From Marinobacter gelidimuriae (GTDB lineage: Bacteria; Pseudomonadota; Gammaproteobacteria; Pseudomonadales; Oleiphilaceae), in contig NZ_KB889829.1 of assembly GCF_000372805.1 (NCBI RefSeq), positions 180-64,179 on the forward strand: a stretch of 64,000 bases of DNA. Direction: 5' to 3'. The translations under genes and the position numbers were made by a program. Positions 44,429-64,000 of the stretch are shown piece by piece. The notes below the pieces were generated by a model. That model was not told the DNA's origin. It saw only the letters and a list, made by a program, of their open reading frames with translations, and did not search any database. How positions within the stretch are numbered: the stretch's first letter is position 1; every line of letters starts with the position of its first letter.

Positions 44429-44476
44429 TTGACAATATTATAGTTTCGGAACGATACTATAATCCTGCCGTATTGG
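44413..44476 (+). promoter_or_regulatory. promoter module of the left Fe-S operon
   Basis: TTGACA at 44429-44434 is followed by a 19-bp palindrome at 44441-44459 (TAGTTTCGGAACGATACTA) and by GATACTATAAT, where the -10 lies: GATACT gives an 18-bp spacer, TATAAT one of 23 bp. The 64-bp module matches 62214-62277 on the opposite strand at 51 of 64 positions without gaps. The operator lies between -35 and -10, so a repressor there would block RNA polymerase. Confidence 0.75.
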
Positions 44477-44764: not shown

Positions 44765-44781
44765 CGTCGGAGAAATGAAAA

Positions 44782-45099: not shown

Positions 45100-45381
45100 T
45101 GACATTGAAACCGGTGAGGGGCGGGCTTCCAACGATGCAAAGCTTGACTGCACCAGAACTGGGCGCATGGTTTTAACCACGTTAGCAACCTTACAGGTGG
45201 CGTTCATGCTTGGGCTCTGCAAATCGACGGCACGATGCCGACCTATTGAGTTTCAGGTTTATCGACTTTCGCAAAAATGATGATAGGCAATAAGCGTATG
45301 AATTGGGATTGGTTGTTATTTTGGCGGCAGAGATCAAAGCCAATTTCTCCCCCGTTAATTGAAAATACAAGGAACTTAACC
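45100..45381. other. 282-bp gap between glutaredoxin and Mrp genes
   Basis: I see no gene with a start and ribosome site and no operator palindrome. An in-frame extension of the Mrp gene to 45277 is open but begins in AT-rich, non-conserved sequence. AAGGAACTTAACC before ATG 45382 is the translation signal. Confidence 0.5.
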
Positions 45382-49002: not shown

Positions 49003-49089
49003 CCCAAAAAGTAACGGAAAAGTTGATCGAAAACCACCTGAGCGTAGACGCTATGAGGCGTGACGAAAAGATCGATAGGAGCCATGGGC

Positions 49090-49440
49090 ATGGCTGATCA
49101 ACTTAACGAAAAAAAAGCATTTTTGACATGGGAAGAATCGGTGGTGGCCTTACAAACCGATGCTGGACAGGGCTCCGCCCGTGCGCAACGTTTATTGGCG
49201 ATGCGATACTTGCGCGGCCGTGGAGTGCCTAAAGATGAGGCCATCGCTTTTTATTGGATGCAGCTCGCCGCACAACAAAATTTTGCCTTGGCACACCGCA
49301 GTCTGGGCGAGCTTTACGAAAATGGCTCGGGTATCGCGCAGGATATTACCCTGGCGGCTCATTGGTATCGTCTTGCAGCACAGCAAGGCGACCCCATCGC
49401 TAAAAAACATTTGCAACGCTTAGCACAGCCAAACACGTGA
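49090..49440 (+). CDS. Sel1-repeat protein
   Basis: A 116-aa cytosolic protein with two clear Sel1-like repeats: ARAQRLLAMRYLRGRGVPKD and FALAHRSLGELYENGSGIAQ, each ending in a W/YxxLAAQQ helix. Sel1 repeats are protein-binding surfaces. I begin at ATG 49090 since AGGAG is eight bases upstream. It lies between selO and the ErpA gene in the Fe-S operon, so it may be an adaptor for one of these proteins. Confidence 0.8.
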   Translation: MADQLNEKKAFLTWEESVVALQTDAGQGSARAQRLLAMRYLRGRGVPKDEAIAFYWMQLAAQQNFALAHRSLGELYENGSGIAQDITLAAHWYRLAAQQGDPIAKKHLQRLAQPNT

Positions 49441-49552
49441 TGTAAAAAGCAGTCAATTCACCCAACAAGGCCCTATGACGACTGGCTAGGGAACCGTTTA
49501 TGGTTTTAGTCAGAAATTCAACAGTCAAATATCAAAGTACCCGGAGGCAATT

Positions 49553-49906
49553 TTGAGCATAGTCCAGGAACACACCATAACCCCGCTGTTTCTCAGTGAA
49601 AGTGCGGTGTCCAAAGTACGTGAATTAGCCGAAGAAGAAGGCAACGAGAACCTGAAGCTTCGGGTGTTCGTAACCGGGGGCGGCTGTTCTGGATTTCAGT
49701 ACGGCTTCTCGTTCGATAAGGTGCAAGATGATGAAGACGCGGTGATTCAAAAAGACGGCATGAGTATGCTGGTCGACCCGATGAGCTATCAGTATCTTGT
49801 GGGCGCAATGGTCGATTATCAGGAGGGGCTACAAGGAGCCCAATTTGTCGTGCAGAACCCGAACGCCAGCTCAACCTGTGGTTGCGGCAGTTCGTTCACT
49901 ATCTAG
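49553..49906 (+). CDS. erpA: A-type Fe-S carrier, ErpA-like
   Basis: A 117-aa protein with the three cluster-binding cysteines in [13 protein letters not shown] and TCGCGSSF. Length and the NASSTCGCG ending fit ErpA, which gives clusters to essential enzymes, IspG/IspH among them in E. coli. The start is TTG with GGAGG upstream. It is the last gene on the plus strand of this operon; a 110-bp space with no visible operator precedes it. Confidence 0.93.
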
Positions 49907-49972: not shown

Positions 49973-50194
49973 TCATTTACTCAAACCATCGGCGGCCCCG
50001 CACTCGCCGACTGCCCGAAGCGCTTCCTCGACGGAAAGGCGCTTTTGCAGGGTTTCCTTCGGATAATCGATCTTGCCGCAACCGGCGCACGCGAGATTGC
50101 ACTGGAAAAGAGGCTCCAGCATCAATACCAGCGGAAAACGCTTTTCTCCGGAAAGCTTCGGATTGCGGCCCTCGCCGCTAAGCATCAGCCCCAC
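49973..50194 (-). pseudogene. hpnH: N-terminal fragment of hopanoid radical SAM enzyme HpnH
   Basis: The frame reads [21 protein letters not shown] and [22 protein letters not shown], the start of HpnH with its CxxxCxxC cluster motif (CNLACAGC). HpnH is about 340 aa and adds adenosine to hopene. Only about 60 residues remain and the frame then stops. Its beginning overlaps the end of idi. It is a relic of a hopanoid gene that probably travelled with the mevalonate genes. Confidence 0.85.
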
Positions 50195-50765
50195 GTTCGC
50201 GCAGTGCGTCGATATGGTTGCGCCCCTGGTCCATCAGTGCCTTCCACTCCATCTTGAACCAGGGTGTGTACCCGGATGGCGCGTCTTCGAGTTCGCGAGT
50301 CACTTCTTCCATGGGCACCCAGCGCCAGTCGGTAATTTCGGCCGGGTGCACCCGGGCCTCGCCGCCCGATGCGCCGATGTATACGTGGCACAATTCGTGC
50401 TCTGCACCACGATCACCGAAATCGGCTTGGTAGATGAACTTGTAAACGAATTTCAGCGACGCTTCCAGCCCCAGTTCTTCCCGCAGACGGCGGTGAAGCG
50501 CCTGGTCCATCGTCTCGCCGCGTCGGGGGTGCGAACAGCAGCTGTTGGACCAGTACAGCGGCCAGAGCGGTTTGCCCGCAGCACGCTGCTGCAGCAGCAC
50601 CCGGCCCTGCTTGTCGAACAGGAAAATCGAGAACGCCCGGTGCAGCGTTCCATGGCCCTCGTGGCAGTCGCCCTTTGAGCGATAGCCAACCTCGTTGTCA
50701 TCTTCATCAACGAGTATCAGGGGCTCGTCATCGAACGATACTTTTTCGCGCATATCCTCAACCAT
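50178..50765 (-). CDS. idi: isopentenyl-diphosphate delta-isomerase type 1
   Basis: A 195-aa Nudix-fold enzyme that interconverts IPP and DMAPP. The catalytic Cys is in [12 protein letters not shown] (near residue 75) and the metal/catalytic Glu in AEHELCHVY (near residue 122-130). W in the terminal ITDWRWV block is also conserved. A mevalonate pathway makes only IPP, so an isomerase is needed; it is the last gene of the mevalonate set and starts 8 bp inside the HMG-CoA reductase-mevalonate kinase gene. Confidence 0.95.
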
Positions 50766-53037
50766 TTTTCGGCTTACCTCCTACTGTAACCTGAATCGCC
50801 TGATAGCCGGCTTCACGGATACCCGATTCAATGCGATCGGCAGCGCCGGGTTCCGGCGGACACAGGGCAATGATGGAACCACCGCCACCGCCACCGGTGA
50901 GCTTTGCCCCGAGAGCGCCGTGGCGGCGGGCAATCTGGATCATTTCCTCCAGTTCCCAGCTCGACACCTGCATCGCGTTGAGCAGGCCCTGGCAAATGTT
51001 CATCAGCTCTCCCAGCGTTTCGAGCTTGTGCCCGACCAGCGCATCCACGCCCTCGATCACCAGCGAATCGATCTGGTTAAAGATATTCTCGTACAGTTCG
51101 GGGTGCGCTTCGCGTGCCTTGCGAACACGCGCGACTGTCGCCGCGGTCAGGCTCTCGATACCGCTGATACCGACGACCAGCTGCACGGCTTGATCGATCT
51201 CGATCACCTTGCGCAGCGGCGATTCACCGGAACGGAAGAGCATGGTCTGGCCATAGGTCGAGAGCGTGTTATCGATACCCGATGGCGTACCGTGCGCGAT
51301 CTTTTCGCACTCGAACGCCAGCTCGTTGACGCGCTCGTCGTCCAGGCCGAGTTCGAAACAGCGGTCTAGCGCGCGAATGGTGGCCACCGCGATCGCCGCC
51401 GACCCGCCCAGCCCCATGGCTCGCGGTACGTTGGGGAAGATTTCCACGCGCATGCTCTCGCGTTCGAGTCCGAGCGTCTTGAAGATAATCGCCAAGGATT
51501 TCTCGTAAGAATGCTGCTTTTCCGCGCTTCGGTGCAATCGCTGCTCCACGCCCCAGCGCGGAATGATCAGTTGCACGCCGTCCCCGCCGCGCTGCACGTG
51601 CGCCTGTATGGCCAGCGGTACCGGCGTCGCGATCGCGTGCCGCCCATAAACAACTGCGTGTTCGCCCAGCAGGATGATCTTGCCGTGTCCGCCGGATATG
51701 TTAGGTTCCTCGGCAGCGGTTTCGGACTGCGGCTGCTCCTCAGCGGCCTCCACGCGAGGGTTGACGACCTGCTCGATCAACTCGCGCGCCTTCCAGATCT
51801 TGATCTCGCCGGATTCGATCAGCCGGTCGACGACGGTTTCGAAGATTTTGGGTGTTGCACCGGCCGCGGCTACCACGCTTCGGGCGTGCAGCGTCATGTG
51901 GCCTTGCTGGATGCCTTCGGTCACGAGCGCGCGGATTGCCGAAAAGTTCTGCGCAAGACCCACCGCGCCCATCACTTCGGCCAGCTCGCGCGCCGAACTC
52001 ACGCCCAGAAGCCTGAGGTTCATTCCCGCCGTGGGATTGGACTGCAGCGGACCCCCGACAATACCGACCTTGATCGGAATCTCGAGCTGGCCTACCAACG
52101 AGCCGTCTTCGCCCTGCGTCCACTGGGTCAGCGACGTGTAGTGGGACCCGCGCGCAGCCCAGGCGTGGGCGCCCGTCTCGATGGCGCGCCAGTCGTTGCC
52201 TGTGGCCAGCGCCACGGCATCGATTCCGTTCATGATGCCCTTGTTATGGGTCGCTGCACGGTAGGGGTCGATCGAGGCAAATTCGTTGGCCAGGATGATT
52301 CCGTCGCGCACCTGCTCACCATCGAAGCCGCGGCCGGCCAGCGCGTCCAGCGGAATCGAGACCCGGGCCTTGACCAGGGCTCGATCGGTCAGATTTGAAA
52401 GAATCCGCAGGAACACCTTGCCTTCGGCGATATTCTCGACCAGCGAGGCAACGCCTTCGCACATTGTGTTGACGAGGTTCGCGCCCATCGCGTCGCACGT
52501 ATCCACTAGCAGGTGAGCGACGACCATGTCACCGCGCTGGCCCGACGATGGGTGAATCAGCACTTGGAGGTCCTTGGCCCCGCCGCCGCGGGCCACCATG
52601 TTCGGGTGCAGGCTGTTGGCAAGGTTCAGGATTTCGCTTTTGCGCTGCAGCAGTGCCGCCTTGGCGCGCTGCGGATGCGGTACGTCGACGACCTGGATCT
52701 GGCCAATCAAAATCGGCTCGGAGCTTTCCACCCGGAAGCCGCCGCCGGCCCGTGCGATCTTGGCCGCAGAGCTCAGCGCCGCAACGATCGAAGGCTCCTC
52801 CACGACCAGTGGAATGGCGTATGCCTTGTCGTTGATCAGGAAATTCAGGCCCAGCGCCAACGGCAGCCCCATGACGCCGATGACGTTTTCGATCATCTTG
52901 TCGGCCGACTGGATCGAGAGCGTGTGATCGCCGCTGGCCAGCGCCTGGTAATCCTGGCTCGAAAGCAGGCCCTGCTTGCGAACTTCGCGAACCCGCTGCG
53001 AAACCGAAAGTTTGTAGAACTCGGGAATTCTTGCCAT
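50758..53037 (-). CDS. fusion of class II HMG-CoA reductase and mevalonate kinase
   Basis: A 759-aa two-enzyme protein. Residues 1-426 are class II HMG-CoA reductase: ENVIGVMGLPLALGLNF, Glu81 in VVEEPS, DTCDAMGANLVN, Lys266 in THNKGIMNG, Asp282 in GNDWRA and His380 in QGHMTLHARS fit the catalytic residues of Pseudomonas mevalonii. A Glu/Pro/Ala linker of about 20 residues follows. Residues 447-759 are mevalonate kinase: GKIILLGEHAVVYGRHAI, the P-loop PRAMGLGGSAAIA (538-550), Asp589 in GTPSGIDN and GAKLTGGGGGGSI. One protein thus makes mevalonate and phosphorylates it. GC is higher than in the flanking suf genes. Confidence 0.95.
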   Translation of the reverse strand: MARIPEFYKLSVSQRVREVRKQGLLSSQDYQALASGDHTLSIQSADKMIENVIGVMGLPLALGLNFLINDKAYAIPLVVEEPSIVAALSSAAKIARAGGGFRVESSEPILIGQIQVVDVPHPQRAKAALLQRKSEILNLANSLHPNMVARGGGAKDLQVLIHPSSGQRGDMVVAHLLVDTCDAMGANLVNTMCEGVASLVENIAEGKVFLRILSNLTDRALVKARVSIPLDALAGRGFDGEQVRDGIILANEFASIDPYRAATHNKGIMNGIDAVALATGNDWRAIETGAHAWAARGSHYTSLTQWTQGEDGSLVGQLEIPIKVGIVGGPLQSNPTAGMNLRLLGVSSARELAEVMGAVGLAQNFSAIRALVTEGIQQGHMTLHARSVVAAAGATPKIFETVVDRLIESGEIKIWKARELIEQVVNPRVEAAEEQPQSETAAEEPNISGGHGKIILLGEHAVVYGRHAIATPVPLAIQAHVQRGGDGVQLIIPRWGVEQRLHRSAEKQHSYEKSLAIIFKTLGLERESMRVEIFPNVPRAMGLGGSAAIAVATIRALDRCFELGLDDERVNELAFECEKIAHGTPSGIDNTLSTYGQTMLFRSGESPLRKVIEIDQAVQLVVGISGIESLTAATVARVRKAREAHPELYENIFNQIDSLVIEGVDALVGHKLETLGELMNICQGLLNAMQVSSWELEEMIQIARRHGALGAKLTGGGGGGSIIALCPPEPGAADRIESGIREAGYQAIQVTVGGKPKNG

Positions 53038-53046
53038 GCTCGTTCC

Positions 53047-54135
53047 TTATGAGTGTTCTCTGCCCGATTCGGGCACCTGGCGCCGCACAGCCTCTGCGCC
53101 AAATTCTGACATTGCCAAGTTTAATGGAACCCCGCCACAATCTGAGACGCCGAGCTCGAATGCCCGGAGTCTCTCCGGGTCACGCGCCAGGGCAATTCCA
53201 AGGTCGCCACCACCGGCGCCACAACTCTTGTAGACCACGCCGCACTCGTGTCCATGCTCGGCCAGCCGTCGATGGGGGGCGGTCATGACCTCCTTGCCCA
53301 TGGCATCGCCCAGCGCAACCATCTCAACGGCGTATGCGGCGCAGGCATCGAACAGCACAGCCCCGTCGTGCGCGTTGGCCACGGCGTGGCGCGCAATATC
53401 GTCCAGGCGGGACCGGATCCGGCCTGCACCAACAGGATCAGCCAGCTTCCAGGTATCGAACGCACCGACAAAATCCGTGGTCTGGGCAGCCTGACGGGTC
53501 CAGATTGCGCGCCAATACAGGTCTTCCGGCCAGTTCGCCGGCGTGCAGATCGCGGATTCGCCGGTGGATCGAAATTCGCTGATACCACCGCAAAACGCCG
53601 CGGCCAGGTCTGCGCCACTGGCACGGGCGCCCAGTGATTCGCGATAGACCGGCAACCATCGACGCAGACGCTCGCGCGGATCCGACGGACCTGCCGACCC
53701 CGCGAACCATTCGGTCAACGCCACCGCCAATGCTGCGCAGACGGCCGCACTGGAACCCAGGCCCAGCTTTACCAACCGTCTGCGGTCGGATTCGAAAAGG
53801 GCCCCAGAATCGATCTCGATGTTTATTGTCATGATCTCGCCGGGTGACCGACCCAGCGCCCGCATGATGCCCGGTATCAACCGCCCGGTCAGGCCCAGCA
53901 CGTAGGAATCCGCGCCATCGCAGCGCAGCGTCTCGCCCTCGACCCGCATGGCCGCCCGCTCGAACCCGAGCTGGACGGCACTCAACCAGCCCGTACCGCT
54001 CGATGCCCGCTGCAACCTGACTTTCACCCGCCGATCCACCGCCATCACCAGCGCCGGTGCCCCGTCGAGCACGGCATATTCGCCAATCAACAGCAGTTTG
54101 CCCGGCGCAGAGGCCTGGACGCAGTTCACGTTCAC
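53047..54135 (-). CDS. mvaK2: phosphomevalonate kinase (GHMP family)
   Basis: A 362-aa GHMP kinase. Motif 1 is APGKLLLIGEYAVLDGAPAL, motif 2 is KLGLGSSAAVCAALAVAL and motif 3 is KSCGAGGGDLGIAL. The order and the GEYAVLDG form point to phosphomevalonate kinase rather than mevalonate kinase. It converts mevalonate 5-phosphate to the diphosphate. Its start overlaps the decarboxylase stop by four bases, and the next gene begins nine bases after its stop. Confidence 0.92.
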   Translation of the reverse strand: MNVNCVQASAPGKLLLIGEYAVLDGAPALVMAVDRRVKVRLQRASSGTGWLSAVQLGFERAAMRVEGETLRCDGADSYVLGLTGRLIPGIMRALGRSPGEIMTINIEIDSGALFESDRRRLVKLGLGSSAAVCAALAVALTEWFAGSAGPSDPRERLRRWLPVYRESLGARASGADLAAAFCGGISEFRSTGESAICTPANWPEDLYWRAIWTRQAAQTTDFVGAFDTWKLADPVGAGRIRSRLDDIARHAVANAHDGAVLFDACAAYAVEMVALGDAMGKEVMTAPHRRLAEHGHECGVVYKSCGAGGGDLGIALARDPERLRAFELGVSDCGGVPLNLAMSEFGAEAVRRQVPESGREHS

Positions 54136-55139
54136 GTCTGACCGTCGTCCATGCTCACCGCACCGCAGCCCAGCCCAGCACGCAGAACCTCAGTTACGCC
54201 GGCCACATCCTCGAGCGCGGCGGCCACCGTATCTGCCGCTTCCGGTGCACATATCGCCTTGACCTGCGGGCCGGCATCGACGGTAAAAAACACCGCAACG
54301 CCCCGGCCGCGCAACCCGCGTATGCGATGCAGGCATTCCATGGTAGTTGCATTGAAATACAGAAGACCAGGCCGGGCCGACATGGCCAGGCCGTGCAGGG
54401 CCAGTGCGCTCGCTTCGGAAACGTGCGCCAGCGCATCGAAATCACGAGCCGCGATAGCCGTTCGCGCCAGCGCCAGGTCGTCGGGCTGATTGTTTACCCA
54501 GGCCGAATAGAACGGTGACGTTTGTGCGGTCCGCTGCATGCCTTCGGTGGATCCCACCGACTTGCGGCCGCGGTCGCTGACCGCGATCACGACCTCCAGC
54601 GGCCAGTCCGCCGCCGCGGCCAACGGTTCGGCAACGCTGTCGCTGCCGTCGGGGAGTTCGCCGCGGTGCATCTCCACGTATCCGCCAAAAATCGAGCGCG
54701 CGGCGGACCCGGACCCGATCCGCGCAAGCTCCGAAAGCCTGGAGGGAGAAAGAACCAACCCATAGGCGCGATCCGCCGCAGTCACCAGCGCGGCGAAACC
54801 CGACGCCGACGAGGCCAGACCAGCACCGGTAGGAAAATTGTTTCGGCTAAAAACCCGGGACCGGGTTTTACTTCCACCGATGGAGCGCATGCGCTCTAGC
54901 AGTGCCGTCACGCGCCCCGAACCGTGGGCCTCAATCTGACCATCGAGCTCGAAGCTGTCCCGCTCCAGTGCCGGATCCAGTTCCACCCGGGTGCGGGTCC
55001 ACAACGCGTCAAGCGTGATCGAGATCGACCCGACGTCCGGCAGGTTCAAGTCCGCATCACGTTTGCCCCAATACTTGACAAGGGCAAAATTGGCATAAGC
55101 GATGGCCTGGGCCCGGCCCGGCGAGTGTGGGGTGTCCAT
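54132..55139 (-). CDS. mvaD: diphosphomevalonate decarboxylase
   Basis: A 335-aa GHMP-fold enzyme that makes IPP from mevalonate diphosphate. The signature YANFALVKYWGKRDADLNLP, then SISITLD, is typical; the P-loop is FPTGAGLASSASGFAA; RSIFGGYVE and the Asp of FTVDAGPQ complete the active site. ATG 55139 is the likely start, although no good ribosome site is seen; ATG-type codons up to 55199 would add 20 residues. First of the GC-rich mevalonate genes. Confidence 0.94.
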   Translation of the reverse strand: MDTPHSPGRAQAIAYANFALVKYWGKRDADLNLPDVGSISITLDALWTRTRVELDPALERDSFELDGQIEAHGSGRVTALLERMRSIGGSKTRSRVFSRNNFPTGAGLASSASGFAALVTAADRAYGLVLSPSRLSELARIGSGSAARSIFGGYVEMHRGELPDGSDSVAEPLAAAADWPLEVVIAVSDRGRKSVGSTEGMQRTAQTSPFYSAWVNNQPDDLALARTAIAARDFDALAHVSEASALALHGLAMSARPGLLYFNATTMECLHRIRGLRGRGVAVFFTVDAGPQVKAICAPEAADTVAAALEDVAGVTEVLRAGLGCGAVSMDDGQT

Positions 55140-55290
55140 GAGATTTGCGACAGATCCGGCTCGTTTGTGGGTGGTACGGTCATTTCTGGCGGTCCGCATC
55201 AGTTTGGCTTCATCGGTCAGTATGTTGTTGCTCCAAGGCGGGATCTGAGTAGGCCAGAAATTCCACTTGTTTCTGATGGTCGCCTGCCTG

Positions 55291-55314
55291 GCCAGTACTG
55301 GTCACGATACTGGC
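55291..55314 (-). terminator. hairpin directly after the sufT-like stop
   Basis: GCCAGTA at 55291-55297 and TACTGGC at 55308-55314 form a 7-bp stem with a 10-nt loop at once after the stop. No U run follows on the transcript. It may stabilise or process the mRNA or cut down transcription into the mevalonate genes. Confidence 0.4.
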
Positions 55315-56157
55315 TCAGATCAGCCCTAACTCCAGCCGCGCTTCCTCCTCCAGGTTGTCGTAGCTCCAAGGCGGATCAAACACCACATCCACCTTGGCGT
55401 CTTTGACATTCGGAACCTGCAATAACTTGTCTTTTACGTCGCCGCCAATAATGGCGCCCATTCCACAACCCGCCGACGTCAGGGTCATTTCAACAAATAC
55501 AAAATACTTGTCCTGGTCAATATCCAGTTTATAGATGAGACCCAGACCGACAACATTCACCGGAATTTCCGGGTCATAGACCAGTCGCATCGCATCCCAG
55601 CATTGCTGTTCACTGATTTGCCCATCCTCAGGGTGTTCGAACACGATGGCGTCTGACTGAAAGCCCAGCTCCTGGGTAACTTCTGGGGACAGTCGATACA
55701 GATTGCCCTGGTAGTTAACGGTGAAACTGCCGCCGAGCGCCTGGGTTATCGAGACAGACGCTCCCTGCGTCAGCGTGACAGACTCACCGGAAGGTACCTT
55801 TAGGGCACTACAGTCTTCTGGCAAAACGAATGTCTTGGGCGGCTTGGGCGGCTTTTTCAAGTTCGGTGCCTTGATCGTCGGGGTCTGAAGGCCACCCTCT
55901 TCCTCAAGGCCGATCTGCATGTCCTGGAGATAGGGCAGGCTCGCCGCTTCGAAATAGAAGATCAGGTCATCAAACTCTTTCCTGACATCCTTGGCTGCCT
56001 CTTCGCCGCGTGGGCAGAAGGCGAGGCAGGTCTCGGCCTTCTCAGTGCCACCCTTCTCCACATAAACACGTACCGCCATTCCAGGCACTTCCTGCTTTGC
56101 AAGCAAGGACATCAGGAAGTCATGGGCTTCTGGTGTTACTTCAGCATTAATGTTCAC
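55315..56157 (-). CDS. sufT: NfuA N-domain fused to SufT (DUF59/MIP18)
   Basis: A 280-aa protein of two domains. Residues 1-105 resemble the degenerate A-type N-domain of NfuA: TPEAHDFLMSLLAKQEVPGM, the C-x3-C pair in ETCLAFCP, LPYLQDMQIGLEE and IKAPNLKK. Residues about 110-280 are SufT: KVPSGESVTLTQGASVSITQ, LGGSFTVNYQGNLYRL, then MIP18 with DPEIPVNVVGLGLIY, Cys231 in TSAGCGMG and FDPPW. SufT helps mature [4Fe-4S] proteins. The GTG start overlaps the stop of the 47-aa gene (GTGA). Confidence 0.88.
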   Translation of the reverse strand: MNINAEVTPEAHDFLMSLLAKQEVPGMAVRVYVEKGGTEKAETCLAFCPRGEEAAKDVRKEFDDLIFYFEAASLPYLQDMQIGLEEEGGLQTPTIKAPNLKKPPKPPKTFVLPEDCSALKVPSGESVTLTQGASVSITQALGGSFTVNYQGNLYRLSPEVTQELGFQSDAIVFEHPEDGQISEQQCWDAMRLVYDPEIPVNVVGLGLIYKLDIDQDKYFVFVEMTLTSAGCGMGAIIGGDVKDKLLQVPNVKDAKVDVVFDPPWSYDNLEEEARLELGLI

Positions 56158-56297
56158 GAGCTATACCCGCCGTGTTCTGTGTTTTCACGCCTGCGCTTGA
56201 GCTGGTTGGTTTTACACTCTTTGCTTACAAGATCCAGCCACCTCAAGTGCTGATCCCAGCTCTCGTCTTTACTATGCTCGGGCATGTTGCAAGTCAT
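56154..56297 (-). CDS. 47-aa protein of unknown function in the suf operon
   Basis: A short gene with a very good ribosome site (GAGGAGGTAACG before ATG 56297) and a stop that overlaps the sufT-like start by GTGA. The product is charged (MTCNMPEHSKDESWDQHLRW at the start, KRRRE later), with two Cys and several His, and no membrane segment. I do not recognise it. The strong signal and the coupling show that it is probably expressed. Confidence 0.7.
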   Translation of the reverse strand: MTCNMPEHSKDESWDQHLRWLDLVSKECKTNQLKRRRENTEHGGYSS

Positions 56298-56431
56298 CGT
56301 TACCTCCTCAGGCACTGTGAAAATGAGGGAAGCTCTTGACACACTGTCAGCATCGGTCGAGCGTCTACCTCGCGTTTGGTCAGGACCACTTCACGTTCTT
56401 GCATGCCTTATCGGGCCTTGTTTGATGTCAA

Positions 56432-56785
56432 TCAAGAGACGGTGAAACTTTCCCCGCAACCGCACTCAGCGGTGGCATTCGGATTGCGGAACAGGAACAC
56501 GGAGTTCACGCCTTCCGTCACGAAATCGATTTCGATACCGTTGACCAGCGCCAGGTGCTCCTCTTTGACGTAAACATCGACACCGTCAATGTGGAAGATT
56601 TTGTCGTCCGCTGCGACATCTTCGGCCCATTGGGTTTCGTATTTGAACCCGGAGCAACCGCTCTTCCGAATGGTCAGGCGGATGCCTTTGGCTTGCGTGT
56701 GCCTGTCCACTTGTTTACGCACATGTTTGACCGCGCTTGGCGTCATTGTGACGGCAACGGTTGGTGTGAATACTTCGGTTGTCAT
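56432..56785 (-). CDS. sufA: A-type Fe-S carrier (SufA/IscA-like)
   Basis: A 117-aa protein with the cluster-binding cysteines in KSGCSGFKYE and AECGCGESF. The overall sequence resembles SufA/IscA and is clearly distinct from the ErpA-like copy at 49.6 kb. It should carry clusters from SufBCD to targets. Position after sufD instead of first in the operon is unusual compared with E. coli sufABCDSE. Confidence 0.92.
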   Translation of the reverse strand: MTTEVFTPTVAVTMTPSAVKHVRKQVDRHTQAKGIRLTIRKSGCSGFKYETQWAEDVAADDKIFHIDGVDVYVKEEHLALVNGIEIDFVTEGVNSVFLFRNPNATAECGCGESFTVS

Positions 56786-56844
56786 GGTTCCACCTCCATC
56801 AGGCGAAAAGACGTTGGATTTTCTGCAGGGCCGTGAATAACGGC

Positions 56845-58131
56845 TCAGGCCTCCTGAAACGTTTGATTGAAAAAGTCATTCAGCCGAAGCTGCATGGCTT
56901 CTCGAACTGCCTCGACGGGGATCTGTTCAACCAGCTCGTTGATAAATGCGATGGTCAGCAGCGTGTTGGCTTCGCGACGACCAACACCACGGGAAACCAG
57001 ATAGAACAACGAGGTTTTATTGAGCTGGCCAATGGTGGCGCCGTGGGCGCATTTTACGTCGTCGGCGTAAATTTCAAGCTCGGGCTTGGTGTCGATTTCT
57101 GCGCCGGTTGAGAGCAACAGATTCTTGTTGTTCATATTGGCGTTGGATTTCTGGGCATCCTGATGAATATGGATGCGCCCATTGAAAATCGCATGAGACT
57201 GGCCAGCAGCGATGTTGCGATAGGTTTCTTCGCTGTCGCAATGGGCTGCTATGTGCTCGATTGACGTATGGTTGTCATAGTGCTGCTTGCCCTGAGTGAC
57301 CACGACACCGTTCAGTTTGCACTCGGCGCCTTCACCTTCAAGACGTACCTGCAGATCGTGCCGACGCAGCGGGCCGCCAAAGCCAACGCAGTGGCTTTCA
57401 AAACGCGAGGCGGTCGCCTGGCGAACACCCGTTGCACCGATGTGCTGAACGCTTTCGCCTTCCAGAGTAAGCCTCACGCCGGTTATCCGGGCACCTTCCG
57501 CCAGAACAAATTCAGTGACCGTGTTGACCATCACCGGCTCACTACCGCTGGAAATATACTCTTCTACCAGCGTCATCTGGCTATGCCTTGCCGCATCGAC
57601 GTAAATCCGCGGATAGGCGGAACCTACCGACGAAGCGGTGACTTCATGGATGATGAACAGCGGCTGGTCGAGAACGGCTTCTTTGTCCAGCTGGATAAAC
57701 AGGCCATCCTCAAATCGGGCGGAGTTCAGCCGGGCCATCTGCACGGTTTGGCTGTCCAACGTGTTGTCCAGGCGTTCTGCCAGCACAGCGACGTCCTGGT
57801 CGTCAAGGTCGCAGAACCGCTGAATACGAATGCCGGTAAGATCCGGAAAGTCGCTGGCTTCCGGAACCATAACGCCGTTGCGAAAAACCACGCGGTATCC
57901 AGCCATGGACAGGCTGGTGCCTTCCTTACCAGGGGAGGGGAGGGCAACGGCAAGCTCATCCGACAGCTTTAGGTGGCGGCTGGAATACTTCCAGTTCTCG
58001 GTTTTACGGGTCGGCAATGGCATATCCACCAAAGCCATACCCTTTTGTTTGCGCAATTCGAGCAAAGGCCCGGGCAGGTAGTTGCCGGCTGGCTCAAGAA
58101 AGACGCTGGAAAGCGTTGGTGCTGACTTCAT
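56845..58131 (-). CDS. sufD: SufD, Fe-S scaffold complex subunit
   Basis: A 428-aa protein with beta-helix core, partner of SufB. Family features: TRKTENWKYSS near the N-terminus, QHYDNHTSIEHIAAHCDSEE, AIFNGRIHIHQDAQKSNA and a C-terminal helix DDVKCAHGATIGQLN, then ARRxANTLL-like GRREANTLLTIAF. SufD is needed for iron entry to SufB2C2 or SufBC2D. It starts 12 bp after sufC. Confidence 0.95.
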   Translation of the reverse strand: MKSAPTLSSVFLEPAGNYLPGPLLELRKQKGMALVDMPLPTRKTENWKYSSRHLKLSDELAVALPSPGKEGTSLSMAGYRVVFRNGVMVPEASDFPDLTGIRIQRFCDLDDQDVAVLAERLDNTLDSQTVQMARLNSARFEDGLFIQLDKEAVLDQPLFIIHEVTASSVGSAYPRIYVDAARHSQMTLVEEYISSGSEPVMVNTVTEFVLAEGARITGVRLTLEGESVQHIGATGVRQATASRFESHCVGFGGPLRRHDLQVRLEGEGAECKLNGVVVTQGKQHYDNHTSIEHIAAHCDSEETYRNIAAGQSHAIFNGRIHIHQDAQKSNANMNNKNLLLSTGAEIDTKPELEIYADDVKCAHGATIGQLNKTSLFYLVSRGVGRREANTLLTIAFINELVEQIPVEAVREAMQLRLNDFFNQTFQEA

Positions 58132-58143
58132 TCGGTGGCCTCC

Positions 58144-58908
58144 TTAGCTGGCTGTGGCTTCTTTGTCTTTCACGTTGAGCCAGCCGTAACCGCGCTCTTC
58201 AAGCTCATAGGCCAGCTCGCGCCCGCCGGATTTGACAATTTTGCCATCGGCCAGAACGTGAACATAGTCCGGCACAATGTGGTTCAGCAGGCGCTGGTAG
58301 TGAGTCACCATCAAGATGGCCCGATCTTTAGCGCGCAGGGCGTTCACACCGTCGGAAACCACGTGCAGCGCATCAATGTCCAACCCGGAATCGGTTTCGT
58401 CCAGAATGGCCAGCTTGGGTTGAAGCAGCAGCGCCTGCAGAATCTCGTTGCGCTTCTTCTCGCCACCGGAGAAGCCCTCGTTTACGCCGCGCTTAAGGAA
58501 GGCCGGGTCCAGATCGACTTGCATGGACACTTCCCTCGCATGCTTCATAAACTCAGCCGCGTTCATCTCCGGCTCGCCACGGTGGCCGCGCATGGAATTG
58601 ACGGCGGTACGCAAGAACTGCAGGTTGCTGACGCCTGGAATCTCTACCGGGTACTGAAACGCCAGGAAAACGCCTTCACGGGCCCGTTCTTCGGTTTCTA
58701 GGTCCAGCAGGTTTTCACCGTTGAACGTGACTTCACCCTCGGTGACTTCAAAGGTTTCACTGCCTGCCAGCACCTGTGACAGGGTGCTTTTACCTGAGCC
58801 ATTGGGGCCCATAATGGCGTGAATTTCCCCGGCTTTAATTTCCAGGTTGATGCCCTTGAGGATTTCTTCGCCCCCAACGGACGCGTGCAGATTTTTGATG
58901 TTCAGCAT
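58144..58908 (-). CDS. sufC: SufC, ATPase of the Fe-S assembly complex
   Basis: A 254-aa ABC-type ATPase. Walker A GPNGSGKSTL, the SufC-specific signature EGFSGGEKKRNE, and Walker B LAILDETDSGLDID are all present. ATP hydrolysis drives the shape change of SufBD. Gene order sufBCD is kept. The spacing to sufB is 35 bp. Confidence 0.97.
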   Translation of the reverse strand: MLNIKNLHASVGGEEILKGINLEIKAGEIHAIMGPNGSGKSTLSQVLAGSETFEVTEGEVTFNGENLLDLETEERAREGVFLAFQYPVEIPGVSNLQFLRTAVNSMRGHRGEPEMNAAEFMKHAREVSMQVDLDPAFLKRGVNEGFSGGEKKRNEILQALLLQPKLAILDETDSGLDIDALHVVSDGVNALRAKDRAILMVTHYQRLLNHIVPDYVHVLADGKIVKSGGRELAYELEERGYGWLNVKDKEATAS

Positions 58909-58943
58909 GTATTGGTTTCTCTCTGTAATCTGAAATTCTGTAT

Positions 58944-60392
58944 TTAACCGACAGAGCCTTCAAGGCTCACCTCAAGCAATTTGCCAGCTTCAACGGCGAA
59001 CTCCATCGGCAGTTCCTTGAACACCTCTTTACAGAAGCCGTTCACAATCATCGAAACGGCCTGTTCAGGGTTGATACCGCGCTGGCGACAAAGGAACATC
59101 TGTTCGTCGCTGACTTTGGAGGTAGTGGCTTCATGCTCGATGATGCCCGATTTATTTTTGCTCTCGATGTACGGAAAGGTATGCGCACCGCAGCGGTCGC
59201 CAATCAGCAGCGAATCGCACTGGGTGAAGTTGCGTGCGCCCTCTGCGCCTGGGCCAAACTTCACCAGGCCACGGTAGGCGTTCGAGCCGTTGCTGGCGGA
59301 AATCCCTTTGGAGATGATGGTGCTGGACGTGTTTCTGCCCAGGTGGATCATTTTGGTGCCAGTGTCGGCCTGCTGGTAATTGTTGGTCAGCGCCACGGAG
59401 TAGAATTCGCCAACGCTGTTATCGCCCCTAAGAATAACGCTGGGATACTTCCAGGTAACGGCAGAGCCGGTTTCGACCTGAGTCCAGGAAATCTTGGAGT
59501 TTTTGCCGATGGCAGCACCACGTTTGGTGACGAAGTTGAAGATGCCGCCTTTGCCGTTTTCATCGCCCGGATACCAGTTCTGGACGGTGGAGTACTTGAT
59601 CTGGGCGTCGTCCAGGGCCACCAGTTCAACCACAGCGGCGTGGAGCTGATTTTCATCCCGCATAGGAGCGGTGCAGCCTTCCAGATAGCTGACGTAGCTG
59701 CTGTCTTCGGCGATGATCAGGGTGCGTTCAAACTGCCCGGTGTTGGCTGCGTTGATGCGAAAATACGTAGACAGCTCCATGGGGCAACGCACGCCTTTCG
59801 GTATGTACACGAAGGTGCCGTCGGAGAAGACCGCAGAGTTCAAACCTGCAAAGAAGTTGTCACCAGACGGGACGACAGAGCCCAGATATTTTTTGACGAG
59901 CTCCGGGTGATCCTGAATGGCTTCGGACATGGAGCAGAAAATCACGCCCGCTTTAGCGAGTGGTTCTTTGAACGTTGTCGCTATTGAAACTGAGTCAAAC
60001 ACGGCATCGACTGCCACGCCTGCCATCTGTTCACGCTCGTGCAGGGGGATGCCCAGTTTTTCGTAGGTTTTGAGTAGCTCCGGGTCCACTTCGTCCAGGC
60101 TCTGGAGCATGTCTTCTTTGCGCTTGGGCGCGGAATAATAGGAAATTGAGTTGTAATCAATTTTTGGGTAACCCACTTGCGCCCAATTCGGCTCATCCAT
60201 TTCCAGCCAGCGACGATAGGCCTTCAGCCGCCACTCAAGCATCCATTCCGGCTCTTTCTTGATACCGGAAAGACGAGCAATCACGTCTTCGTTCAGTCCA
60301 GGTTCGAAAGTGTCGGATTCAATATCAGTCACGAAACCGTGCTCGTATTCCTGCTTGACCAGCTCGTTCACTTCTTTATCGGTGGTCGCCAT
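58944..60392 (-). CDS. sufB: SufB, Fe-S scaffold
   Basis: A 482-aa protein on which the cluster is built. Landmarks are [40 protein letters not shown] and [20 protein letters not shown], which contain the conserved Cys for sulfur transfer and cluster binding. I start at ATG 60392 (MATTDKEV) with AAGGAG upstream. It is separated from the short selO by 140 bp; I see no separate promoter there. No sufS or sufE is present in the window. Confidence 0.96.
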
Positions 60393-60532
60393 GATCGTCA
60401 CTCCTTATCTTTCATTGAAGACTCTAAGAGTCTTAGCTTTTTTGCGGTTTTCATTTAATACCCAAGATTACCAGCGCTTTAACCCTATAAACCGGAGACA
60501 ACACTCCCTCTCGGGCCCACGAATAAACCGTC

Positions 60533-62053
60533 TCAAGTGCCACAAAGCGTGCTGCGTAAAACCTCCTCCGGCTTCGGTGGCTGCAGATACCGAGCGTCTG
60601 CCGGCATCTCGAACGGCCGGGTGACAGCCTCCAGAAGTTGGTGGAACTCACTGAAATCTCCCTCGTGAGCCCGCCGGATGGCGTGTTCTACCAGATGATT
60701 GCGTGGTATAACCACAGGATTTGCAGTAGCCATAGCATCCGCACACTGGCGAGAGCTGCGGCCGGTCAGTGTCAGCCTGAGATGCCAACGCCGGTACCAG
60801 TTCAGATAATCACCGGCATCAGCACCGAAAAGCCCCGCAGTGATACCGCCGCCCTCCACATCCTCTGCCAGTTTCAGGAAAAAAGTGTGGTAATCCACTT
60901 TCTGCAGAACCAACAGCTGCCGCAGATCCTGAACCAGCTGACGGTCCGCCGGCATCACAGCCTCCAGGCCAAGGCGGGCCCGCATCAGGTTCAGCAGATG
61001 TTCTTCGTACATTGGCCAAAACTCCTGCACCGCCCGCGAGGTCCGGGCCACGGCCTGGGATTCTGGCCCCTCGAAAAGTGCAAGCAGAGCCTCGGCCAGG
61101 CGAGCAAGGTTCCATTGCGCCGCGAAACCCTGGCTGTTGTATGCGTACCGGCCGGTGATGTCGATCGAGCTGAACACCGCATCGGGGTCGTAATGGTCAA
61201 GGAAGGCGCAGGAGCTATAATCCAGGGTTTCACCGGCCAGAGACATGTTGTCGGTGTTCATCACCCCATGAACAAACCCCAGACTCACCCAGTGTGCGAC
61301 CAGCTTTGCCTGCCGCGCTACCATCAGGCGCAACAGAGCGAGATACGGATCGGGGTCGACCATCAATTCGGGGGCCATGCGGGCAATGCTGTAATCAGCC
61401 AGCTGCCTTAATGGCTGCCACTGTTGACGCCGGGCAAAATACTCAAAAGTACCTACCCGAATATGGCAGCTGGCCACTCTTGCCAGCACGGCTGCCGCCT
61501 CCGTACCCTGGCGGTATATTTTTTCACCGGTTGTCGTCAACGCCAGTGCCCGGGTAGTGGGAACACCCAGCGCATGCATCGCCTCACTCACCAGATATTC
61601 ACGTAGTGCCGGTCCTAGCGGCGAACGGCCATCTCCACTCCTTGCAAACGGTGTCCGACCTGCGCCCTTCAGTTGCAGGTCACGGCGCTGTTGGCAGCGG
61701 TCGATAACCTCACCCAGAAGAATCGCCCGGTCGTCTCCCAGTTGCGGCACAAACTGGCCAAACTGGTGCCCGGCATAGGCCATGGCCAGTGGCTGTGCAT
61801 CCATCGGCAACCGGTTACCGGCAAACAGTTGCGTTAAGTGATCGCTATTTGCCATCAAGTCTGAATCATCCATCCCCAGCTCCCCGGCCAGGGGTTTGTT
61901 CAGTACGAGCAATTCTGGTGCCGCCACTGGCAGGGGCTCACAGTGTTGATAAAAGGCGCCGGGCAGGCGGGCATAGCTGTTATCGAAGCACATTCCCGTC
62001 ATCATCCGCGACGGCCCTAAGCTTTCTTCCTGATGTCTGGTAAGCGCGCCCAT
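60533..62053 (-). CDS. selO: SelO protein adenylyltransferase, short form
   Basis: A 506-aa SelO of normal bacterial length. LQLKGAGRTPFARSGDGRSP is the phosphate region, FVHGVMNTDNMSL the metal-binding Asn part. The DYG of most SelO proteins is LDYSSCAFLD here: the Asp remains but Gly-Pro became Ser-Ser. A Cys is near the C-terminus (STLCGT). It is the first gene of the right operon, directly after the operator-covered promoter. It is a distant paralogue of the long SelO at 47.3 kb. ATG 62053 has AAGGA upstream. Confidence 0.92.
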   Translation of the reverse strand: MGALTRHQEESLGPSRMMTGMCFDNSYARLPGAFYQHCEPLPVAAPELLVLNKPLAGELGMDDSDLMANSDHLTQLFAGNRLPMDAQPLAMAYAGHQFGQFVPQLGDDRAILLGEVIDRCQQRRDLQLKGAGRTPFARSGDGRSPLGPALREYLVSEAMHALGVPTTRALALTTTGEKIYRQGTEAAAVLARVASCHIRVGTFEYFARRQQWQPLRQLADYSIARMAPELMVDPDPYLALLRLMVARQAKLVAHWVSLGFVHGVMNTDNMSLAGETLDYSSCAFLDHYDPDAVFSSIDITGRYAYNSQGFAAQWNLARLAEALLALFEGPESQAVARTSRAVQEFWPMYEEHLLNLMRARLGLEAVMPADRQLVQDLRQLLVLQKVDYHTFFLKLAEDVEGGGITAGLFGADAGDYLNWYRRWHLRLTLTGRSSRQCADAMATANPVVIPRNHLVEHAIRRAHEGDFSEFHQLLEAVTRPFEMPADARYLQPPKPEEVLRSTLCGT

Positions 62054-62071: not shown

Positions 62072-62090
62072 TAGTGTCGAAACGATACTA
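62072..62090. promoter_or_regulatory. 19-bp operator palindrome over the suf/mevalonate -10
   Basis: TAGTGTCGAAACGATACTA, with arms of 8 bp matching at 7 of 8. On the minus strand it carries the -10 element TAGTAT, so a bound protein would stop transcription. Confidence 0.75.
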
Positions 62091-62113
62091 AATGAGGATA
62101 ACGAATTTGTCAA
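62085..62113 (-). promoter_or_regulatory. promoter of the selO-suf-mevalonate operon
   Basis: On the minus strand TTGACA (62113-62108) and TAGTAT (62090-62085) are spaced by 17 bp, a near-consensus sigma-70 promoter. The -10 lies inside one operator palindrome and the next one touches the -35. The start would fall about 25 bp before the selO ATG. Confidence 0.75.
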
Positions 62114-62115
62114 TA

Positions 62116-62134
62116 TAGTATCGAAACGCTATCG
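62116..62134. promoter_or_regulatory. operator-like half-palindrome next to the -35
   Basis: TAGTATCGAAACGCTATCG: one perfect arm (TAGTATCG) and one weak arm. It lies just upstream of TTGACA of the right operon. Confidence 0.5.
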
Positions 62135-62213
62135 TATTGGCCGTGATCCCATTACGGTCTAAATATTGAAGAGGTGACCTATCAAAGGTGTTCAGGGCCT
62201 CACACCCTTCACG

Positions 62214-62277
62214 AATACGACAATATTATGGTTTCGCTCCGAAACTACAATCTTGTTAAGATAGTTCTTAAACGCTA
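62214..62277 (-). promoter_or_regulatory. second copy of the 64-bp promoter module, inverted
   Basis: Read on the minus strand it matches 44413-44476 at 51 of 64 positions. It keeps the CTATCTTrACAA block, the palindrome (62229-62247, TGGTTTCGCTCCGAAACTA on plus) and CATAAT. It could serve as an upstream promoter of the right operon. On the plus strand it overlaps the marR promoter. Confidence 0.7.
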
Positions 62278-62281
62278 TTAT
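62253..62281 (+). promoter_or_regulatory. promoter of the MarR-family gene
   Basis: TTGTTA (62253-62258) and TATTAT (62276-62281) are 17 bp apart. A degenerate operator copy (62262-62280, TAGTTCTTAAACGCTATTA) covers the spacer and -10, and a good one lies just upstream, so autoregulation is likely. Confidence 0.6.
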
Positions 62282-62345
62282 GTAAGAATGATCTAGGAGC
62301 TTGAAATTAGACGCCACCAAATTAAGTATGATCGAGGAGCTGGAA

Positions 62346-62954
62346 ATGAACGGTCGCGCTAACGCGGAGTTGGTCTTTCACTTGGGACGCATAGCGTCCG
62401 GCGAGGGTCTCGCGGAGGGGCTGACGGCAGCCCAATGGGCGGCGCTCAGATACTTCGCACAGGCCAACCGTTTCTCGCAAACGCCGTCCGCCTTCGCCGC
62501 GTTCCATGCCACAACCCGGGGTACGGCGTCACAGACAATCAAAAGCCTCGAAACCCAAGGCTATTTAACACGCATGCGGTCAGAGGACGACAGGCGCAGT
62601 GTCCGGCTAGTTCTGACCGAGAAAGCCCGGGGCATTCTCGCGAATGACCCCTTCGAATCCCTGGTCCGTGCCGCGGAATCCCTACCCCCCAGTGTTCAAG
62701 GCCACTTCGCCAGTGCCTTGCAACGCTTGCTCGATCAGGTGACGCAAGAGAGATGCAAACCTCGCTTCGGCGTCTGCACGTCGTGTCAACATCTGGAAAG
62801 CGACGGCTGCAGCCGGGACGGACAAGCGCCCTATGCGTGCGGGTTCATGAGCGAGCCCCTGTTTTTGGAAGAACTCGACGGAGTCTGCATCAACTTCATC
62901 CAGAGCAAACCCGTAACGGTGAAGGGTTCTGTCACCAGAGCCGAACAGCGATGA
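62346..62954 (+). CDS. MarR-family regulator with a six-cysteine C-terminus
   Basis: A 202-aa regulator. Residues 1-130 form a MarR winged helix: LTAAQWAALRYFAQ, TRGTASQTIKSLETQGYL (recognition helix) and RMRSEDDRRSVRLVLT (wing). Residues 137-181 add Cys137, 144, 147, 155, 165 and 181, as in GVCTSCQHLE, DGC, YACGF and GVCINF. This is beyond a usual MarR (about 140-150 aa) and looks like a metal or Fe-S site. I choose ATG 62346 with GAGGAG upstream; TTG 62301 and ATG 62328 are also in frame. It probably binds the 19-bp palindromes nearby. Confidence 0.85.
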   Translation: MNGRANAELVFHLGRIASGEGLAEGLTAAQWAALRYFAQANRFSQTPSAFAAFHATTRGTASQTIKSLETQGYLTRMRSEDDRRSVRLVLTEKARGILANDPFESLVRAAESLPPSVQGHFASALQRLLDQVTQERCKPRFGVCTSCQHLESDGCSRDGQAPYACGFMSEPLFLEELDGVCINFIQSKPVTVKGSVTRAEQR

Positions 62955-63244: not shown

Positions 63245-64000
63245 ATGAATTCTTCGCCGATTCCGAATACGGCTCCGTTCGCCGAAGAGGAGATCGAGAT
63301 TCTCAACCGCGTGGTGGGGCCTGCAAGCCCCACCCAACGCGCGTGGCTTGCGGGATTTCTTGCCGGAGTGGACGCCTCCACGACGGCGCTGCAGCCGGTG
63401 GGCGGCGCGCAACCCGCCGAACCGCTGACCATCCTCTACGCCACCGAATCCGGAAACTCTGAGCGGCTAGCGTTGGACATAGCCAAGGCGGCACGCAAGA
63501 TGGGGTTGAAGCCTTCGGTCGTCGACATGGCTGATCTCGATGTGGCGACGCTCGCATCGGTACGGCGTCTTGTTGTCATCGCCGCGACCTGGGGTGAAGG
63601 TGATCCGCCCGCGCGGGCCATGCGCGCTTACGCTGAACTCATGGGTGAGGGCGCGCCGCACCTCGATGGCACCGAGTTCGGCGTTCTTGCGCTCGGCGAC
63701 ACCGCCTATACCGAGTTCTGCGCGATTGGTAAAGCGTTGGACGCAAGACTTGCGGCGCTTGGCGGCAAGCGCGTCGCCGAGCGCGTCGATTGCGATCTCG
63801 ATTTTGCGGAGCCCGCCGGGCACTGGATCGAGACGGCGCTGAAGGCGCTGGCGCCAGTTGAGGAAGCCGGTCGCCGCGTTATTGCGGTCGATTTTGGCGC
63901 GAAGGCGGCGAGCAGCTCTGGTCTTGGTCCGGTCGAGGCCGAGATCACCGAGCTTATCCAGCTCAATTCATCGCAGTCGGAAAAGGTAACGATCCATCTC
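63245..64000 (+). CDS. cysJ: CysJ-like sulfite reductase flavoprotein, incomplete at window end
   Basis: 252 residues are visible and the frame is open at the end. Residues about 60-215 form a flavodoxin domain: LTILYATESGNSERLA, ATWGEGDPPARAM and FGVLALGDTAYTEFC bind FMN. A linker then leads into the start of the FAD/NADPH reductase part. CysJ gives electrons from NADPH to sulfite reductase, a siroheme-[4Fe-4S] enzyme. The N-terminal helix (EEEIEILNRVVGPASPTQRAW) is typical of CysJ. A supply of reducing power or sulfide would fit the Fe-S island. Confidence 0.88.
   Translation, partial: MNSSPIPNTAPFAEEEIEILNRVVGPASPTQRAWLAGFLAGVDASTTALQPVGGAQPAEPLTILYATESGNSERLALDIAKAARKMGLKPSVVDMADLDVATLASVRRLVVIAATWGEGDPPARAMRAYAELMGEGAPHLDGTEFGVLALGDTAYTEFCAIGKALDARLAALGGKRVAERVDCDLDFAEPAGHWIETALKALAPVEEAGRRVIAVDFGAKAASSSGLGPVEAEITELIQLNSSQSEKVTIHL

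Follow-up and report, generated by a model that had tools for sequence, protein, structure and literature searches.

The window, by which we mean the whole stretch of 64,000 nt analysed here, carries several copies of a palindrome close to a gene for a MarR-type regulator, which raises the question of whether these copies are operators of that regulator and, if so, which genes they govern and which signal they serve.

Five sites at three candidate promoters

The operator core is a 19-bp palindrome, TAGTWTCGAnTCGAWACTA. An earlier note on this DNA listed five copies, at 44441-44459, 62072-62090, 62116-62134, 62229-62247 and 62262-62280, and all five sequences are present as it gave them. Its distinction between three good and two weaker copies is borne out as well: compared with TAGTnTCGnnnCGAnACTA, the copies at 44441-44459 and 62072-62090 have no mismatch and 62229-62247 has one, whereas 62116 has 4 and 62262 has 5 (counted by hand), and these two are too weak to be detected by the TAGTnTCGnnnCGAnACTA pattern. 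At up to 3 mismatches this pattern matches six times in the window, compared with a mean of 1.15 and a maximum of 4 in 100 shuffles. An independent matrix, described below, was run over 63,982 window positions and places the five sites at ranks 1, 2, 3, 4 and 6, with rank 5 (58295, 10.8 bits) falling inside sufC.

Operator 1, 44441..44459: covers spacer and -10 at the bolA-grx4-mrp-nfu-selO2-sel1-erpA promoter; 0 mismatches, 24.6 bits, rank 1
Operator 2a, 62072..62090: covers the -10 at the minus-strand selO-suf-mevalonate promoter; 0 mismatches, 24.1 bits, rank 2
Operator 2b (weak), 62116..62134: just upstream of the selO-suf -35, 44 bp from 2a; 16.3 bits, rank 4
Operator 3a, 62229..62247: just upstream of the marR -35; 1 mismatch, 20.6 bits, rank 3
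Operator 3b (weak), 62262..62280: covers spacer and -10 at the marR promoter, 33 bp from 3a; 9.4 bits, rank 6
Candidate promoter of the bolA operon, 44429..44458, plus strand: TTGACA-N18-GATACT, consensus match
Candidate promoter of the selO-suf-mevalonate operon, 62085..62113, minus strand: TTGACA-N17-TAGTAT, consensus match
Candidate promoter of marR, 62253..62281, plus strand: TTGTTA-N17-TATTAT, consensus match

The earlier note had all sites overlapping the -10 or spacer regions of these promoters. This holds for 44441-44459 (spacer and -10), for 62072-62090 (-10) and for 62262-62280 (spacer and five of the six bases of the -10), but not for 62116 and 62229, which lie just upstream of a -35. 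The promoters are consensus matches only, and their numbers are not far above those in shuffles (three in the selO/marR intergenic region vs 0.8, sd 1.0; one in the bolA region vs 0.5, sd 0.7); a further consensus match at 62107-62135 (plus, TTGTCA-N17-TATCGT) was set aside. At the selO-suf promoter the strong site lies on the -10 and the weak one upstream of the -35, and at the marR promoter the order is reversed. This arrangement suggests that the suf genes would be repressed tightly and marR itself loosely.

Across four aligned genomes, 70 of 76 operator columns are identical, compared with 159 of 216 other intergenic columns (62072: 18/19, with the one change at a free position; 62116: 19/19; 62229: 17/19; 62262: 16/19). 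For the bolA operator at 44441, all 19 columns are identical in the four genomes, vs 98 of 122 around it. The homologous counterpart of operator 3b in genome G026 reaches 15.3 bits. On the minus strand at 44249-44387, divergent from bolA, we observed the remnant of a second marR-4C gene (76% identity over 29 aa and 57% over 21 aa), and the stretch around the operator at 44441 resembles 62214-62250 by eye. The operator at 44441 was probably once part of a divergent marR/bolA operator. Since the look-alike stretches and the remnant suggest a duplication, sites 44441 and 62229 are not independent of each other.

Copies in genomes and co-occurrence with the gene

The earlier note had named many random copies in the genome as a point against its proposal. 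Searching the whole genome (3.63 Mb) at up to 1 mismatch, we found three strong copies only, and none with a reversed-pattern control. Two further copies, with 2 mismatches, lie on contigs C77 and C104. At up to 3 mismatches the motif (55 matches) is rarer than its reversed control (169), so that loose matches carry no meaning and near-exact copies alone do.

The marR-4C gene is found at 94% identity or more in three of 58 close genomes, the source genome included, and a fourth carries it at 35%. In the class it occurs in 28 of 369 genomes (E <=1e-15). A near-consensus operator (TAGTATCGNNTCGATACTA, at most 1 mismatch) is present in 12 of the 369, nine of them with the gene; thus 9/28 genomes with the gene (source genome included) carry it vs 3/341 without (p = 4e-9). 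All five class genomes with reversed-pattern matches are without the gene. Within the genus, operators were counted in 61 genomes and the gene was searched in the 58 close genomes only. The three genomes with a close gene carry three operators each, and five of the remaining 58 have one single copy of differing sequence; the reversed pattern occurs at up to 1 mismatch in 27 of the 61 (hand count).

Ten genomes named by their loci give a more varied picture. The four that carry the island have three copies apiece (at most 1 mismatch), in the same places; the six others with the gene have 1, 0, 1, 0, 2 and 1 copies, with a reversed-control match in one. MOLA814 and Eilatimonas have the gene and no genome-wide copy at up to 1 mismatch, and in Glaciecola pallidula reversed-control matches equal operator matches in number. 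Among 30 class-genome loci, 12 are without a copy at up to 2 mismatches, including the strong hits L055, L059, L062 and L063 (L055 and L063 being incomplete loci). These copy numbers indicate that only some clades have the strict consensus and that a matrix is the fairer test.

An independent matrix from upstream regions of homologues

The matrix (symmetric, 19 bp, 20.7 bits of information) was derived from the upstream regions of homologues outside the genus of the window. It started from 105 regions, 78 of them from the 80 named loci, 10 from plasmid loci and 17 from class-genome loci; removing near copies by shared 12-mers left 85, and the window and close relatives were excluded. Not used were L074 (same genus), L084 (no upstream DNA) and the incomplete loci L047 and L051; also left out were L019/L035, L041 and L042 (the last two without Cys4), L044, L055, L062, L063, L066-L071 and L073. 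At up to 4 mismatches, no operator copy was found in L055, L059 and L063, nor in the weak hits L066-L068 and L073 (E 6.7e-23 to 3.2e-16), and L062 and L069-L071 have a copy at 4 mismatches only. As alignment A1 was too diverse for a pattern scan, the closer set A2 was used, and hence the 80 named loci (the best 80 of 336) are biased towards relatives of the window protein.

Of the 85 non-redundant upstream regions, 80 have a site of at least 9 bits, compared with 6 of 1367 control blocks from these loci; for this count the matrix was refined on the same regions and the control blocks were left unmasked for other target promoters. With a leave-one-out matrix, 79 of the 85 regions have a site. 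A cruder mismatch count gives 47 of 78 named loci (from the best 80 of 336) vs 11 of 2129 control windows. The operator upstream of the homologous gene (80/85), its co-occurrence with the gene (9/28 vs 3/341) and the three sites on -10 or spacer all fit the proposal of the earlier note, namely repression by the nearby MarR protein with autoregulation. On this sequence evidence we are nearly certain that MarR-4C, encoded next to them, is the protein for which these sites serve as operators.

The sites also tend to come in pairs. In 56 of the 79 regions with a primary site of at least 12 bits, a second site (at least 6 bits) lies 19-70 bp away, compared with 0.8% for shuffled flanks. Spacings of 21-22 bp (5), 32-33 bp (16), 43-47 bp (24) and 54-58 bp (7) account for 52 of the 56, the other four being 28, 38, 39 and 64 bp. 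They thus lie near multiples of 11 bp, with a best period of 11.45; none of 2000 random sets was as sharp, in a test that presumes even spacing chances and rests on counts in partly related loci (distinct spacings alone give R = 0.40). Many of the second copies end in CGCTA(C/T)(T/C)A; in the window, 62262 ends in CGCTATTA and 62116 in CGCTATCG. Both window pairs, 62072/62116 (44 bp) and 62229/62262 (33 bp), fall within the favoured spacings. The fit in spacing together with the pattern of second copies makes the weak sites probable true partner sites on the same helix face. Operator 1 has no partner site within the 15 top matrix scores of the window.

The Fe-S island and its operons

The three promoters head three transcription units, which were inferred from spacing and direction.

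Operon 1, 44516..49906, plus strand: bolA 44516, grx4 44782, mrp 45379, nfu 46610, selO2 47254, sel1-repeat 49060, erpA-like A-type carrier 49553
Operon 2, 50178..62053, minus strand: selO, sufB, sufC, sufD, sufA, sufT-like, MVD, GHMP kinase, HMGR-MVK fusion, idi
Operon 3, from marR at 62346 onward, plus strand: marR-cysJ-cysI-gltB-gltD-acn, with cysJ-like 63245..64000 in the window and cysI to acn beyond its end (locus L025:1204-11648)

The genes sufB, sufC, sufD and idi were named by sight of their translations, and the GHMP kinase is called PMK by its position. The gene order of operon 1 is kept in genomes G004 and G026 and operon 2 is kept in G026; selO and sufA were not found in the available stretch of G004. 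In both genomes marR is followed by gltB-gltD-acn, without cysJI. Marinobacter sp. ELB17, whose 98% match points to Marinobacter as the genus of the window, keeps the block with cysJI over the extent of the available loci. We call the island mobile because it is missing from most genomes of the genus, has relatives on plasmids and is followed, beyond the aconitase gene, by a gene of phage-integrase type. This recombinase (L025:13103-14578) lies just past aconitase and is a possible mover of the island, and a short transposase-like ORF (43815-44141; IS5 type by eye) marks the left edge.

Several further features of the island deserve mention. An HMG-CoA reductase and a GHMP (mevalonate) kinase are fused in a single ORF (50758-53037), and there are two genes for SelO, a protein adenylyltransferase, one in each of two operons (47254-49002 and 60533-62053). 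Between marR and cysJ, at about 63050-63150, the DNA looks by eye like the last part of a Grx4 gene (YVGGQFAGGCDIVREAIE) when set beside the intact grx4 at 44782. Since IspH is encoded elsewhere in the source genome, the mevalonate set is an alternative route; a search of this genome for HMG-CoA synthase gave none over the cut-off, so the route may be otherwise fed or incomplete. A second GltD (39%) is encoded elsewhere in the genome. For sulfite reductase we rejected a reading as a spare copy, there being no second CysI in the genome at E <=1e-20.

The MarR-4C protein

MarR-4C, 62346..62954, plus strand: MarR-fold regulator with a C-terminal Cys4 domain

The ATG at 62346 is a likelier start than the TTG at 62301, since GAGGAG precedes it and several homologues start there. 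The protein has a MarR winged-helix domain (PF12802, MarR_2, 40.7 bits with a cut-off of 27; PF01047, 37.3 bits with a cut-off of 24.6); at E <=0.01 Pfam gives MarR_2, MarR, HTH_27 and Staph_reg_Sar_Rot only, and no Rrf2 domain. On the window protein, all NCBIfam models stay below their cut-offs. An AlphaFold2 model (pLDDT 88.9) has the MarR fold, and Foldseek places MarR proteins first (E 5.0e-06; VIA-align Z 13.3, rmsd 4.5, 133 aligned, covering about residues 1-137 only); searches with the whole model likewise give MarR proteins and barely probe the C-terminal part. Modelled alone, the C-terminal domain reached a pLDDT of 64, judged too poor for a fold search. Sequence searches of this domain gave no convincing Pfam or PDB match, the weak single-member hits going to zinc and Fe-S families alike. 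The palindromic site at the gene's own promoter, read from the sequence, is in keeping with the MarR family.

The four cysteines of this domain (Cys159, 162, 180 and 196, numbered from the TTG at 62301; FGxC-x2-C ... C ... C) are invariant in 77 of 77 aligned sequences, the window included (relatives from the best 80 of 336). The protein thereby has conserved C-terminal cysteines behind its wHTH, a SufR/ArnR-like feature. A fifth cysteine, Cys170, occurs in 38 of the 77. The count excludes L081, L101 and L106 (stop 4-7 residues after the start of the match) and the truncated L147. By a crude frame test, which gave no frame for nine of 30 class loci and was not used for counts, the Cys4 motif was not detected in L064, a locus with two operators. 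Among viral contigs, eight stretches matched a pattern and none encodes a relative; a blastn search of complete E. coli genomes gave no match to the DNA of the Enterobacter gene.

Gene neighbourhoods in other bacteria

The proposal of the earlier note was too modest: the sites belong to a widespread family, heading a whole Fe-S regulon. Elsewhere, operators precede erpA, grx4, suf, aconitase, fdxA and sigma-factor genes. The Polaromonas plasmid pE3SP1 carries aconitase, marR and an NDH-2-type dehydrogenase, and also a suf-bolA-grxD-nifU-folE-fdxA-lipA run with an operator before it. On an Octadecabacter plasmid we found fdxA, sdhB, aconitase, marR, Mrp, an Nfu-DUF6522 fusion and a sigma factor; there, the aconitase and sigma genes are preceded by operators. 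Bradyrhizobium has an rpoH-like sigma gene divergent from marR, together with fdxA and, in two loci, nuoB. In Gammaproteobacteria the set is grx4 or an A-type carrier, marR and erpA, and separate operators stand before erpA in L109, L112, L116, L118, L120, L124 and L149. In distant relatives (Enterobacter, Lelliottia, Phaeobacter, Ruegeria) the operator is kept and the neighbours are glutaredoxin-like, MOSC or unknown genes; the neighbours in Enterobacter and in Phaeobacter/Ruegeria indicate that the signal may be broader than Fe-S. Several hosts of the gene set have names and sources that point to polar or marine sites.

Among the 80 named loci (the best 80 of 336), assembly or carrier genes occur in 42, genes for Fe-S enzymes or ferredoxins in 19, at least one of the two kinds in 54, and sigma-factor genes in 25. 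Of the 26 without a recognised Fe-S gene, 24 have a DUF6522 or sigma-factor gene and two have neither. These counts use hand-named references with a 30% identity floor (50% for SufC), include near-identical copies (several from Bradyrhizobium) and cover many loci with short flanks. By the same rule none of nine control blocks has an Fe-S gene, a small control of 8-15 kb per block from three genomes of the window's genus that omits the part of G004 adjoining the island, which has a nuoB-like gene and weak aconitase-like matches.

Three observations concern particular neighbours. DUF6522-like ORFs adjoin marR-4C in 26 of the 80 loci (best 80 of 336), and in Octadecabacter (L023:9783-11042) Nfu_N, NifU and DUF6522 are fused beside Mrp and marR; the fusion and the neighbourhood suggest that DUF6522 is part of Fe-S handling. 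RpoH-like or sigma-70 genes lie near marR-4C in L022, L024 and 25 of the 80 loci L074-L153 (best 80 of 336), mostly divergent with operators between, and Bradyrhizobium erythrophlei has five marR-4C loci among the best 80 of 336, four with rpoH detected. Strong operator pairs, 44 bp apart, stand before an ORF at L105:6800/6844 and L111:6723/6767; we take this ORF to resemble an NAD-dependent formate dehydrogenase, possibly another cluster-free stand-in.

Proposed mechanism and alternatives

We consider it likely that MarR-4C is an autoregulated repressor of an Fe-S supply regulon acting through these operators, with its Cys4 site most likely holding an Fe-S cluster. The operator, its link to the protein family, the overlap with consensus promoters, the phasing and the content of the regulon were computed; we infer that the protein binds as a dimer, that it represses and does not activate, that the Cys4 site carries Fe-S and not zinc, and which way the response runs. 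A MarR-4C dimer would bind the 19-bp palindrome, in phased pairs at the two divergent promoters of the window, and would repress three operons of one mobile Fe-S island, including its own gene. With clusters in good supply, the C-terminal Cys4 site would hold a cluster and the holo form would repress; once the cluster is lost or damaged, repression would end and SUF, carrier proteins and added Fe-S enzymes would be made. Some hosts may also make Fe-S-free stand-ins, the mevalonate pathway for IspG/IspH and NDH-2 for complex I. The position of the operators argues for repression; the invariant Cys4, the content of the regulon and the parallel with SufR and ArnR (PMC12343034) argue for cluster sensing, which probably goes through the Cys4 domain. 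The wider reading, to which we give an even chance, is that MarR-4C is a new Fe-S sensor family commanding a mobile 'Fe-S failure' regulon that is freed as a unit when the cluster is lost: added assembly machinery and Fe-S enzymes, cluster-free enzymes (mevalonate pathway, NDH-2) and, in alphaproteobacteria, a dedicated sigma factor. This set would spread on plasmids and islands across beta-, gamma- and alphaproteobacteria.

The same operator and repressor might instead serve another signal (oxidant, NO, a metabolite or thiol state), with Cys4 as a structural zinc site. The arrangement of a C-x2-C, two distant cysteines and a variable loop is suitable for zinc as well, no Fe-S or zinc family gives a convincing match to the C-terminal domain, some relatives lie beside glutaredoxin-like, protoglobin or MOSC genes, and L064 may, by the crude frame test, keep operators without Cys4. 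However, the regulon of the larger groups is Fe-S supply itself, and the wHTH proteins with C-terminal cysteines, SufR and ArnR, are described as [4Fe-4S] proteins (PMC12343034), so that we regard this reading as unlikely. We find it improbable that MarR-4C is an activator or represses in its apo form: sites 62116 and 62229, just upstream of -35 boxes, are in a possible activator position, but at two promoters it is the strongest site, and at the third the weaker one, that lies over -10 or spacer, as fits repression.

Two further explanations take the sites away from MarR-4C. IscR (Rrf2 family) controls suf and isc Fe-S assembly genes elsewhere and is also encoded in the source genome. IscR-like proteins, however, occur in 335 of 369 class genomes (E <=0.001; 118 over the cut-off) and the operator is found in 12, of which nine have MarR-4C; across classes the operator tracks the marR-4C promoter. 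On this distribution we rejected IscR as the owner, and hold ownership by it or another such factor to be very improbable. The chance that the palindromes are accidental is practically nil. The motif is rarer than its reversed control at 3 mismatches and the reversed pattern is frequent in the genus at up to 1 mismatch, both of which would suit an accident; the shuffle test, the number of genome copies, the ranks given by the independent matrix, the homologous upstream regions and the conservation of columns make this untenable.

Relation to known systems and significance

Winged-helix repressors that sense Fe-S clusters, SufR and ArnR, are already known. SufR is, as proposed for MarR-4C, a repressor tied to suf genes, in cyanobacteria and mycobacteria (PMC6034842), and is described as a [4Fe-4S] wHTH regulator reminiscent of the MarR/ArsR type (PMC12343034). 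The two are likened here by description; no SufR model is among the 16 NCBIfam families to which 58 MarR-4C members match, in a library that may or may not contain one. ArnR of Corynebacterium likewise joins a MarR/ArsR-like wHTH to a C-terminal domain in which conserved cysteines hold a [4Fe-4S] cluster, and its Cys variants lose both cluster and DNA binding (PMC12343034). It differs in having three cysteines (179, 193 and 223), in being nearly confined to Actinobacteria and in controlling narKGHJI and hmp (PMC12343034). TamR of Streptomyces is also a MarR-family regulator of an aconitase gene, but it is tied to citric acid cycle genes, citrate and trans-aconitate, and the accessible part of its account mentions no Fe-S site for it (PMC5487221). 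From IscR, MarR-4C differs in its MarR domain and the lack of an Rrf2 match, and both proteins are encoded in the source genome.

The Polaromonas plasmids pE3SP1, pE5SP1 and pE10SP1 have been reported to carry suf genes, glutaredoxins and lipA, with aconitase on two of them, and their glutaredoxins and aconitase were likened to those of Marinobacter psychrophilus (PMC6015842). In contrast to our analysis, the word 'MarR' is absent from the main text of that account, which in its accessible part proposes no operator or regulon (PMC6015842). Searches of the open-access literature yielded no report of the MarR-4C family, its operator or an Fe-S supply regulon under it. The present analysis thus gives an operator, a matrix and a regulon to a widespread family that the plasmid records covered here label simply as a MarR family or helix-turn-helix regulator. 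Should the Cys4 site carry a cluster, this would be a further form of Fe-S sensing, built on a MarR fold and present beside IscR in the same cell. The question that can then be put to the test is whether such islands and plasmids are transferable kits for replacing or bypassing Fe-S proteins when clusters fail, as they may under oxidants, metals or cold with high oxygen.
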